This document shows positions 29,409-32,490 of a DNA stretch of 64,000 nucleotides, piece by piece. Numbering within the stretch: position 1 is the first letter of the stretch; the number at the start of each line of letters is the position of its first letter. Under the pieces are notes generated by a model. The model ran no database searches. It was not told the origin of the DNA and worked only from the letters and a program-made list of their open reading frames with translations. The position numbers and the translations under genes were made by a program. Source of the DNA: an uncultured Rhodopila sp. (GTDB lineage Bacteria; Pseudomonadota; Alphaproteobacteria; Acetobacterales; Acetobacteraceae). The DNA lies in assembly GCF_903915725.1 (NCBI RefSeq), contig NZ_CAIWTY010000088.1, positions 160,055 through 224,054 on the forward strand, in the 5' to 3' direction.

Positions 29409-30200
29409 TCAGGGGACGACGGCCAAGCGACCCCGAGGTGTTAATTGATACATAATACTTCCAGTCCGAGAGCTTTGGCCGTGAGCGACCAAGCCCACAT
29501 CGACTAAACGAGCGAGTGCAAGCGCAGCTTCCGGCTTTGTAAGACCTGACGACTTAGCAACGCCGGACAGACTGCGACGCGCATAGGCTTCGCTGTTCAG
29601 GGCATTTATTACGTTTCGGTCGGATTCTGAAAGTTTGGCGCTCACTGACGGTTCGAGCGGCGTTTGCGAGGAAAGCGGCGGTAGAAGCGAAGCAGATTGG
29701 CTACCTCCGTCTTGCGGCATTGCAGGTGACGCTGCAATGGGACTAGCATGCGCGGTCTTCTCCTCAGCGAGATCGGCAACCTCGTCGCGCAGCGTTTGTT
29801 GCCCCTCCTTCAACCGTTGCTGTTCTGCTTGGGTCCGATGCAAAACTTGGCCGGACAGGCTCTCCATAAACGCGCGTGAAGAAAACGAAGCAATAAGGCA
29901 GTAGGCAGCTAGGCTGAGAAGATCCCAGTCGAAATCATCCGCCACCTTCGATATATTTTTCAACAATTCGCTTTGAGCAACCGCGAGAAAAATCGGAACA
30001 CAAAGGGCCGCCACGATTCCGACTACCAAGTCAGTAATCAATTCCCCGTCCCAACGTGAGGTTTCAGAGGCAGACAGCGCTGCCAGTTGATCTGCGTCGA
30101 CCTTCTTCGATGGAACTTGGCGCCGTGAGCGATGGCCGGCCAAGCCGCCAAGAAGGCCGGCGCTCGTCATCACAAGCAGAACCTCGAGTACTGGTCGCAC
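29409..30200 (-). CDS. YEATS-associated-helix-like membrane protein with C-terminal winged helix
   Basis: A 263-residue protein. Three membrane segments are VLEVLLVMTSAGLLGGLAG (1-22), ITDLVVGIVAALCVPIFLAV (near 55-75) and LLSLAAYCLIASFSSRAFME (near 95-115). The patterns VPIFL, the 'CLIA' stretch and SSRAFMESLSGQVL match proteins called YEATS-associated helix-containing. A coiled coil follows (RTQAEQQRLKEGQQTLRDEVADLAEE), then a linker and a MarR/ArsR-like winged helix (VINALNSEAYARRSLSGVAK, TPRGRL). Such proteins are predicted sensors or effectors in prokaryotic conflict systems. Base composition is lower in GC than neighbours. Confidence 0.55.
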   Translation of the reverse strand: MRPVLEVLLVMTSAGLLGGLAGHRSRRQVPSKKVDADQLAALSASETSRWDGELITDLVVGIVAALCVPIFLAVAQSELLKNISKVADDFDWDLLSLAAYCLIASFSSRAFMESLSGQVLHRTQAEQQRLKEGQQTLRDEVADLAEEKTAHASPIAASPAMPQDGGSQSASLLPPLSSQTPLEPSVSAKLSESDRNVINALNSEAYARRSLSGVAKSSGLTKPEAALALARLVDVGLVAHGQSSRTGSIMYQLTPRGRLAVVP

Positions 30201-30257
30201 CGTTAAACTCCTCTATCTTATCTAACCAACCGACAATCGGTGGCTAGATCACCTACT

Positions 30258-30695
30258 TCAGCGTGCTTTTGGAAACCGTTGCGGGCAGATAGGAGATCCC
30301 TTCGACCGGGGTGATTCGGATTGCCACGCCCCGCCGCCGTCAGGCCCACTCGTGCGGCAAGCCGCACAACGACCTCGCAGTCGCGAACTTCCCCAACGGA
30401 GGTTGCCGCTAACAAAGGAAGCATCAGAGACCGATAATCCGGATTGGGCATCCATTAGAATTAGCGAATAATAGTCGACGTGGGAATAACCCTTCTCGGC
30501 CTCGATGGATTGGCTGATCGTGCGAAACTGGCCGACCCGGAATTTCGCGCGCGGAGTGGCGTCGTCGAATTGTCGTGGCGCCTTCGTCGCGTACACCACA
30601 CGGATCTCGCAATCCCCAATCACCCGTTTGTTGATCGCGTTGCGCACGTCCTCCGACCGAAACACTCGATGACGCCGAGCGCGATGGTCAGGCAT
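30258..30695 (-). CDS. Unknown protein in the REase-HEPN/RusA island
   Basis: From ATG 30695 the 145-residue product reads MPDHRARRHRVFRSEDVRNA, then IGDCEIRVVYATKAPRQFDD and GYSHVDYYSLILMDAQSGLS. It overlaps the end of the REase-HEPN gene by eight bases, which supports translational coupling. The last 40 residues (Cys/Arg/Gly/Ser-rich) look out of frame; an alternative frame gives MLPLLAATSVGEVRDCEVVV. A frameshift near 30400-30440 is therefore possible. I recognise no family. Confidence 0.45.
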   Translation of the reverse strand: MPDHRARRHRVFRSEDVRNAINKRVIGDCEIRVVYATKAPRQFDDATPRAKFRVGQFRTISQSIEAEKGYSHVDYYSLILMDAQSGLSVSDASFVSGNLRWGSSRLRGRCAACRTSGPDGGGAWQSESPRSKGSPICPQRFPKAR

Positions 30696-31368
30696 CCGCC
30701 TGCTCCGCGGCCACCTCCGCAATGCCCAACTTCAGCGCCTTCAACTGGTCCAGCAAGAACTCCACCTGCTCCGCCGACACATCCACCGAGAAATCGCCAT
30801 GAACAACCGAGGACCGCACCCTCGCCATCTCCCGCAGCCGTCGCGCGTCCTCGCTCTCGAGATACCCCTCTTCCGCCAGCGCCTGAACCGCCTGGAGCGG
30901 CGAATACGCTTCGCGACTCCCCGGCCCGCGAGCCAGCCGAGCAAGAGCTTCCAGCACCGCCCAACCGGCGACCAGCGCCGGCACATAATGCCCGGCATCG
31001 GCCAACACCCGGACCTCCCCAAGCCGGGCATCAATCTGCTCAGCGGTCGGCTGCGCGATGTCATCCGGCATCTCCGACGCCGGACCGACGTAGAGAGCCT
31101 GGAATTCCCACCCCTGATGCTCCGCCACCGTCTTCGAAAGCTCTATAAGCTGCCGCTTTCCGGCGGCCTGGTTCCCGGGACGCATAAGCTCGATGATGAT
31201 GCCGCCGCCATCCGGACCGATGGCGATTGCATCGGGCGTGTATCCCGCCAGAAACGGAGGGACCAGGTCCGCCGAAGGATTGATGACGAACCTGAGGCCG
31301 CGCGCTTCGTATGAGGGCTGCAAGCGCCTCAAAACGCTGAGTCCGCCGGGCTGGCTCTCGGGCATCAT
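30688..31368 (-). CDS. Restriction-endonuclease-like/HEPN two-domain protein
   Basis: A 226-residue protein. The N-terminal part (about 1-100) contains YTPDAIAIGPDGGGIIIELM followed by RPGNQAAGKRQLIELSKTV, a PD-(D/E)xK-like core with Asp and Glu plus a basic residue. The C-terminal part (about 115-226) is all helical and ends with RVRSSVVHGDFSVD; R-x4-H (RSSVVH) fits the HEPN RNase motif. AGG-rich GGAGGG precedes the ATG at 31368, and the start overlaps the RusA stop (ATGA). Likely a nuclease in a toxin or defence role; this is inference from domain pattern. Confidence 0.6.
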   Translation of the reverse strand: MMPESQPGGLSVLRRLQPSYEARGLRFVINPSADLVPPFLAGYTPDAIAIGPDGGGIIIELMRPGNQAAGKRQLIELSKTVAEHQGWEFQALYVGPASEMPDDIAQPTAEQIDARLGEVRVLADAGHYVPALVAGWAVLEALARLARGPGSREAYSPLQAVQALAEEGYLESEDARRLREMARVRSSVVHGDFSVDVSAEQVEFLLDQLKALKLGIAEVAAEQADA

Positions 31369-31817
31369 GGTAGCACCCTCCACCGAAGATCGTCGTCAAT
31401 CCGGATATAGACCACCGGACGTTCCATTTCAGTTGCTTGCTCGAGGGTAGGTGTCAAGGACCGAAGGACGGTGTCAGTCTCCGGCTCGAACTTCTGAACC
31501 GTGATCCGCTCCAAAAGCCGATCGTCCGGGTAAATGACCGCGATCATCCCGTCCACGATCAGCTTGACGATATTATCCACATCCCCGTCCATCGGGGCGG
31601 AAGGAAAGTAGAAGATGGTCGCCGCCAGCGCCCGGCCGTCGAGGAAAAAGAAGTCCCTCAACGCGTCTACCCGGGCTTTCGCGGCCTCTCCGACCTTCCG
31701 CTTCCAGCGTTCCTTGGCGTTCGCATTCTTGCTCTGGTGCGACAGCGGCGTGTCCTGGATCAGGAACTCGACCGGGAACGGCAAGCTCAGGTCCGGTTCG
31801 AGTATCGCTTCGCTCAA
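31365..31817 (-). CDS. RusA-like Holliday-junction/endonuclease fold protein
   Basis: A 150-residue protein starting with TTG. It shows the RusA pattern: FPVEFLIQDTPLSHQSKN (N-terminal strand), then TIFYFPSAPMDGDVDNIVKL with the Asp-x-Asp-Asn motif, IVDGMIAVIYPDDRLLERI with a further Asp pair, and a C-terminal strand RPVVYIRIDDD. RusA enzymes cut Holliday junctions and are usually phage-borne; here no phage genes surround it. It overlaps the REase-HEPN gene at ATGA, so the two are translated together. Confidence 0.68.
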   Translation of the reverse strand: MSEAILEPDLSLPFPVEFLIQDTPLSHQSKNANAKERWKRKVGEAAKARVDALRDFFFLDGRALAATIFYFPSAPMDGDVDNIVKLIVDGMIAVIYPDDRLLERITVQKFEPETDTVLRSLTPTLEQATEMERPVVYIRIDDDLRWRVLP

Positions 31818-32092
31818 CTTCCGTCATCCCGACTAACTGGCGGCACAAATCACACGACCAAATCCCGCACCGGGCAGCGCCGCAATACGCCCGACAGAGT
31901 ACGTCCCGACGACCTGCTGCGGAGCCACCAGCCTCGAAGTCGTACTACTCAAGACATTATCCGCCTTGGCGGTGCCGTGCATCGATTTTTCCGGCTTGCG
32001 GCCTCCGGGATATCCCCTTGTTGGCGCTCCCCCTTGATGATCCTGCTATTACCACCGGTATCCCATGCGGTTCTGCCGCTCTCGCCGTCCGG

Positions 32093-32392
32093 TTAAGCCT
32101 CGGCTTTGCCGCGCAACCCGGGCACATGCGGCCCATAGAACGCCCGCAGCGCTGCCATCTCCCGAGCAAGCTCATCGGGGGTCGGCTGGGGAAGCGGAAG
32201 CGCGGCGGCAATGATGCCCGCGAAAACATCATGCTGCGTCGCGTTAGGCCCGAGGCACTCGGCGGCTTCCCGCGCCGAAATTTCTCCCGCCGAATATCGC
32301 CGCAGAATGATCAGGGCGTTCTCGTCGGGTGCGCCACCCGGATCTTGCGACCCGGACTCTCCCCCGCCGCCCGCTCGATGATGGTGTTCCAC
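32093..32392 (-). CDS. Small antitoxin-like protein of unknown family
   Basis: A 99-residue ORF. The convincing part is ALIILRRYSAGEISAREAAE, CLGPNATQHDVFAGIIAAAL and ELAREMAALRAFYGP, which resembles short proteins often predicted as antitoxins beside PIN toxins. The N-terminal 25 residues are low complexity. The frame directly upstream reads MLGVAEVRGLIRSAEDVWNT and ends nearby, so a start shift or frameshift is possible. No PIN gene follows. Confidence 0.4.
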   Translation of the reverse strand: MEHHHRAGGGGESGSQDPGGAPDENALIILRRYSAGEISAREAAECLGPNATQHDVFAGIIAAALPLPQPTPDELAREMAALRAFYGPHVPGLRGKAEA

Positions 32393-32490
32393 ACGTCCTC
32401 CGCTGACCGGATCAATCCGCGCACCTCAGCAACGCCGAGCATCCCGGTCGTGGCAATGGCGACAAGGCCGGTGGCGGGCCGTTACGAGGG

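Follow-up and report, generated by a model that had tools for sequence, protein, structure and literature searches.

A RusA-like nuclease gene paired and co-inherited with an AHJR-like REase-HEPN fusion gene in Proteobacteria

In a 64,000-nucleotide stretch of a contig from an uncultured Rhodopila sp. (hereafter the window), two overlapping genes encode a predicted RusA-like nuclease and a protein that combines an AHJR/Hjc-like REase domain with a HepT-like HEPN domain (Table 1). RusA and AHJR-REase-HEPN are obligate partners, inherited together as a compact two-gene module. This module has inserted as one unit into numerous chromosomal and plasmid locations across Proteobacteria, chiefly in Alphaproteobacteria. 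We tentatively favour, with confidence short of even, that the two proteins jointly would constitute a nucleic-acid conflict or stress module that recognizes branched DNA and employs the HEPN RNase as its effector.

Table 1. Features of the RusA/REase-HEPN pair and its surroundings in the window
Feature	Position	Strand	Basis and remarks
RusA-like structure-specific endodeoxyribonuclease (predicted)	31365..31817	-	150 aa, TTG start; Pfam, profile, fold
ATGA overlap of RusA stop and REase-HEPN start	31365..31368	-	Sequence
AHJR/Hjc-like REase fused to HepT-like HEPN	30688..31368	-	Pfam, profile, AlphaFold, alignments
AHJR/Hjc-like REase domain	~residues 8-105 of REase-HEPN	-	ExK lysine replaced by Met
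HepT-like HEPN RNase domain (predicted)	~residues 108-225 of REase-HEPN	-	R185-x4-H190
DNA block ~85% identical to nearest relative (G024)	30696..31845	-	blastn
Third ORF, not in module	30258..30695	-	Coding-like in its 5' half, apparent decay in its 3' half
Mrr N-terminal-domain-like remnant, not in module	30218..30451	-	Other frame; Pfam Mrr_N E=0.003, below curated cut-off
YLATT three-TM protein, not in module	29409..30200	-	Pfam PF20303 E=5e-18; possible C-terminal wHTH

The RusA-like identity proposed in the initial annotation was confirmed by Pfam (PF05866, E=2e-7, 31.9 bits against a cut-off of 22.8) and by an AlphaFold model, for which the fold search returned 1q8r, 2h8e and 2h8c as top matches with modest scores; E. 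coli RusA (1q8r) was likewise matched in a profile search of solved structures. Residues D79, D81, N82, K85 and D99 are invariant in an alignment of 17 relatives, and every intact RusA copy retains the catalytic residues. Judged by fold, profile, catalytic acids and DNA-binding lysine, the window protein is a member of the RusA resolvase family, for which junction cleavage is predicted. It shares its fold and the catalytic Asp/Asp/Lys/Asp pattern with the known Holliday-junction resolvase (PF05866; E. coli RusA, 1q8r), but represents a dedicated subfamily that is absent from the phage records searched and coupled to AHJR whenever the similarity is strong. RusA resolvases are known mainly as prophage recombination enzymes. 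The phage records contained no match to the window RusA and the viral contigs gave a single match of 31 residues, while relatives of REase-HEPN were found in neither of these collections; this absence speaks neither for nor against a role in defence.

The second product had been described as an REase-like/HEPN protein, and Pfam, AlphaFold and fold search recovered both folds together with the R-x4-H motif, whereas the REase site turned out to be incomplete. The matches to PF18743 (REase_AHJR-like; E=8e-15, 54.9 bits against a cut-off of 26.1) and PF01934 (HepT-like HEPN; E=1e-5, 25.7 against 23.5 bits) both exceed the Pfam cut-offs. Among the profiles of solved structures, the REase half weakly matched Sulfolobus ST1444 (2eo0) and the HEPN half weakly matched Shewanella HepT (5yep). 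The AlphaFold model has a mean pLDDT of 82, and its fold matches, all with modest scores, include the REase folds 2vld and 4qbn and the HEPN/HepT folds 2hsb, 7ae6, 5yep and 6m6u. According to the alignment, D46 and E60 of the PD..ExK motif are kept but the lysine is replaced by methionine (IIELMR), whereas R185-x4-H190 of the HEPN domain is invariant within the A1 relatives. The protein thus has the N-terminal PD..ExK fold in common with the archaeal Hjc resolvase (PF01870; ST1444, 2eo0) on a weak profile match, from which it differs by its C-terminal HEPN fusion and, in the window copy, by the lost ExK lysine. The ATGA junction noted earlier between the two genes is present, a similarly close junction occurs in many relatives, and we infer from it that translation of RusA and REase-HEPN may be coupled.

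According to the initial annotation, its proposal would be refuted if homologues of the pair never occurred together; the result is decisively the opposite, and the two genes do recur as neighbours. Across 36 loci, comprising the relatives of REase-HEPN from whole genomes and plasmids, RusA is the immediately preceding gene in the same orientation in 33, and this neighbour persists even for relatives at ~25-30% identity. The loci without an adjacent RusA are those of two distant relatives (L094, L097) and of a degraded copy (L099). In the reciprocal search starting from RusA, each of the 18 strong matches obtained from 59 genomes adjoins an AHJR gene, and the 6 RusA-positive plasmids among 72,556 records are the same 6 that were found with REase-HEPN, each carrying the pair. 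The distances among RusA proteins and among REase-HEPN proteins correlate closely (Mantel r=0.87; 0 of 5000 permutations as high, permutation maximum 0.44). The block of blastn homology to the nearest relative comprises, at the pair, the two genes and ~28 bp upstream of RusA, and nothing more. A recurrent third partner was found in none of the loci except for a few small groups.

The distribution of the module is patchy. Within the order, 12 genomes out of 299 contain a PF18743 match; within the class, A1 is matched in 10 out of 385. A search of genome contigs with a closer alignment gave 8 loci. In the pyruvate dehydrogenase operon, a sister version of RusA and AHJR occupies precisely the interval between E2 and lpd at three loci (L082, L083 and L085, in G015, G001 and G011, respectively), all from genomes of the same genus (Rhodopila), and in five relatives E2 and lpd are directly joined at the empty site. 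Since the insertion is clean where it occurs and E2 and lpd are joined elsewhere, we regard the pair as a discrete insertion unit.

The gene neighbourhoods of the pair are varied, and the 102 neighbours are mostly metabolic with few PADLOC matches. No recurrent defence neighbour was found among these 102 genes, PIN-like and AbiE neighbours being confined to single loci. As the neighbourhoods are not defence islands, an antiphage or defence role of the pair is still something that we infer. Near the pair on plasmids of Agrobacterium and Rhizobium, L034:6631-8565 and L035:8226-10205 encode GHKL-type (HATPase_c_3) ATP-binding proteins with a weak match to the PADLOC REase_II model. Upstream of the pair, the stretch 32083-32457 of the window is shared with G024 (L070), where it forms the end of a larger PIN-like ORF that weakly matches PADLOC PDC-S70 and is followed by a small partner ORF; the window copy of this stretch looks truncated. 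At the same CcmB-flanked site in G024, three genes precede the pair, two of them PIN-like and one unknown (L070:4877-8050). These upstream differences between the window and G024 are consistent with the site beside CcmB being a variable insertion site.

The active sites of the REase-HEPN protein vary across relatives. With the degraded L099 set aside, 30/30 relatives outside a sister clade possess the HEPN R-x4-H motif. The window copy and six more relatives have a non-basic residue instead of the REase ExK lysine, the glutamate is gone in two further ones, and many retain the complete motif with its lysine. The sister clade, comprising five loci and including a second copy in the genome of the window itself (C68), has lost the HEPN motif, retained the REase ExK/ExR and kept RusA. 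From these patterns of catalytic residues, RusA appears as the constant nuclease of the module and its partner as a protein that usually carries at least one of two active sites. Values of dN/dS, each from a single sequence pair, are 0.07-0.39 for RusA, REase and the active HEPN, in line with purifying selection, and 0.53 for the HEPN region without the motif. The second copy also carries a C-terminal extension (YAIQTAGGRINYIGMAG..., L084:7672-8667, L081:7729-8715) that resembles GIY-YIG by eye; a sequence search of databases gave no match to support this identity.

RusA and Hjc families bind and cut branched DNA. HEPN/HepT domains with R-x4-H are established RNases of toxin-antitoxin (TA) systems and abortive infection (PMC3710099, PMC7641770). 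A DNA-structure-sensing, RNA-cleaving module is favoured because of this knowledge of the RusA, Hjc and HEPN families together with the pairing and the catalytic patterns. By extrapolation from their families, RusA and the Hjc-like domain would recognize branched DNA, for example intermediates of an invader's replication or recombination, or DNA that is damaged. This recognition would release or activate the HEPN RNase, which might then cut RNA and halt growth by dormancy or abortive infection. In the sister clade, the output may instead be DNA cleavage, since this clade has retained the DNA-nuclease site but not the HEPN site. That the pair is in this form a new two-component system for immunity or stress, with RusA and the Hjc-like domain sensing branched DNA and licensing the fused HEPN RNase (in the sister clade a DNase), is a possibility we put forward with due reserve.

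A conflict or TA-like module in general would fit the fused HEPN domain as well as the patchiness and cleanness of the insertions, and a TA module proper dispenses with DNA sensing altogether: the HEPN protein would be an RNase toxin and the upstream overlapping RusA its antitoxin or neutralizer. The HepT-like toxin domain, the two compact genes with their ATGA overlap in an antitoxin-first-like order, and the patchy occurrence, scattered among housekeeping genes and on plasmids, all suit this explanation, and in HepT/MntA (type VII) systems a HepT-like HEPN RNase with R-x4-H is likewise encoded in a compact two-gene operon. The partner in HepT/MntA, however, is a minimal nucleotidyltransferase, whereas it is a RusA nuclease here, and the HEPN domain of the window is fused to an Hjc-like domain. 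The window protein scores 18.5 against a cut-off of 60 with NCBIfam HepT_toxin, and no MntA/MNT-type antitoxin was matched among the proteins of the cluster. Invariant catalytic residues in RusA are unexpected for a pure binder, and the sister clade retains RusA despite the lost HEPN motif. Moreover, in three draft or metagenome assemblies (G022, G334, G846) RusA is broken by frameshift or truncation while REase-HEPN is still open, which would speak against an antitoxin if the breaks in these assemblies are real. We consider a TA module rather unlikely.

Alternatively, the pair might form an accessory DNA-repair or recombination complex, in which RusA processes branched DNA jointly with the Hjc-like domain, and HEPN contributes to dimerization or to RNA/R-loop processing. 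Two junction-resolvase-like folds in one operon, the HEPN motif missing from the sister clade and the mostly non-defence neighbourhoods speak for it, as does plasmid pTi CFBP2177, on which the pair adjoins LigD and an ImuA/ImuB/DnaE2 mutasome. Conservation of the HEPN R-x4-H throughout the relatives outside the sister clade, combined with loss of the REase lysine in several, is however the opposite of what a primary role in DNA repair would entail, and the distribution is very patchy. This explanation thus appears unlikely as well, and the DNA-structure-sensing, RNA-cleaving module remains our preferred reading.

The initial annotation had further placed the pair in an island of four closely packed minus-strand genes with an unknown third gene and a membrane sensor. 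These four ORFs exist, and the third indeed overlaps REase-HEPN by eight bases (30688-30695). As a real partner, the third ORF did not hold up: it has no Pfam match, neither the 33 genomes searched within the genus nor the plasmid collection contains a relative, and its positional GC over the full length (0.61/0.55/0.61) is a non-coding pattern. Weak matches to acnA_upstr_60 and aCcr1 were taken as chance. Its 3' half overlaps the Mrr_N-like fragment of the other frame, which points to a restriction gene that has decayed. For the fourth gene, the YLATT assignment stands, while the winged helix is weakly supported (HTH_36, E=0.21). YLATT was found beside the pair in no relative, its one other match among 59 genomes is weak and lies away from the pair, and its GC3 is 0.53 versus 0.77 for the pair; the gene is a separate, unrelated acquisition. 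That pair, unknown gene and YLATT membrane sensor make up one defence system, as their packing on one strand in this single genome might suggest, is thus highly improbable, given that neither additional gene recurs beside any relative of the pair, that the base composition of YLATT differs and the third ORF seems to have decayed, and that the homology block of the nearest relative covers the pair alone; as a conserved four-gene system the island is refuted.

The fusion of an archaeal Holliday-junction-resolvase-like (AHJR) REase with HEPN-M (DUF86/PF01934) is already known, and the main text of Anantharaman et al. 2013 describes it as occasional (PMC3710099). The domain architecture given there (PF18743) is the same as that of the second protein of the window, but that main text, unlike our analysis of the module, mentions neither a RusA partner nor a pattern of catalytic decay or the way in which the genes insert. 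We found no description of a RusA + AHJR-HEPN system in the main texts of open-licence papers, no match for either protein to a known antiphage system in PADLOC-DB up to E=5, and no known system for the pair in NCBIfam or PHROGs. While the fusion is known, its obligate pairing with RusA thus looks to be undescribed so far.

The RusA subfamily reported here is firmly tied to an Hjc-like protein with a fused RNase and inherited with it as one unit, in a two-gene module that fits a 1.1-kb cassette. If our preferred reading is true, a resolvase would have been turned into a sensor of replication and recombination intermediates, and if RusA reports branched DNA to the HEPN RNase, the pair would represent a new coupling of DNA-structure sensing to growth arrest.
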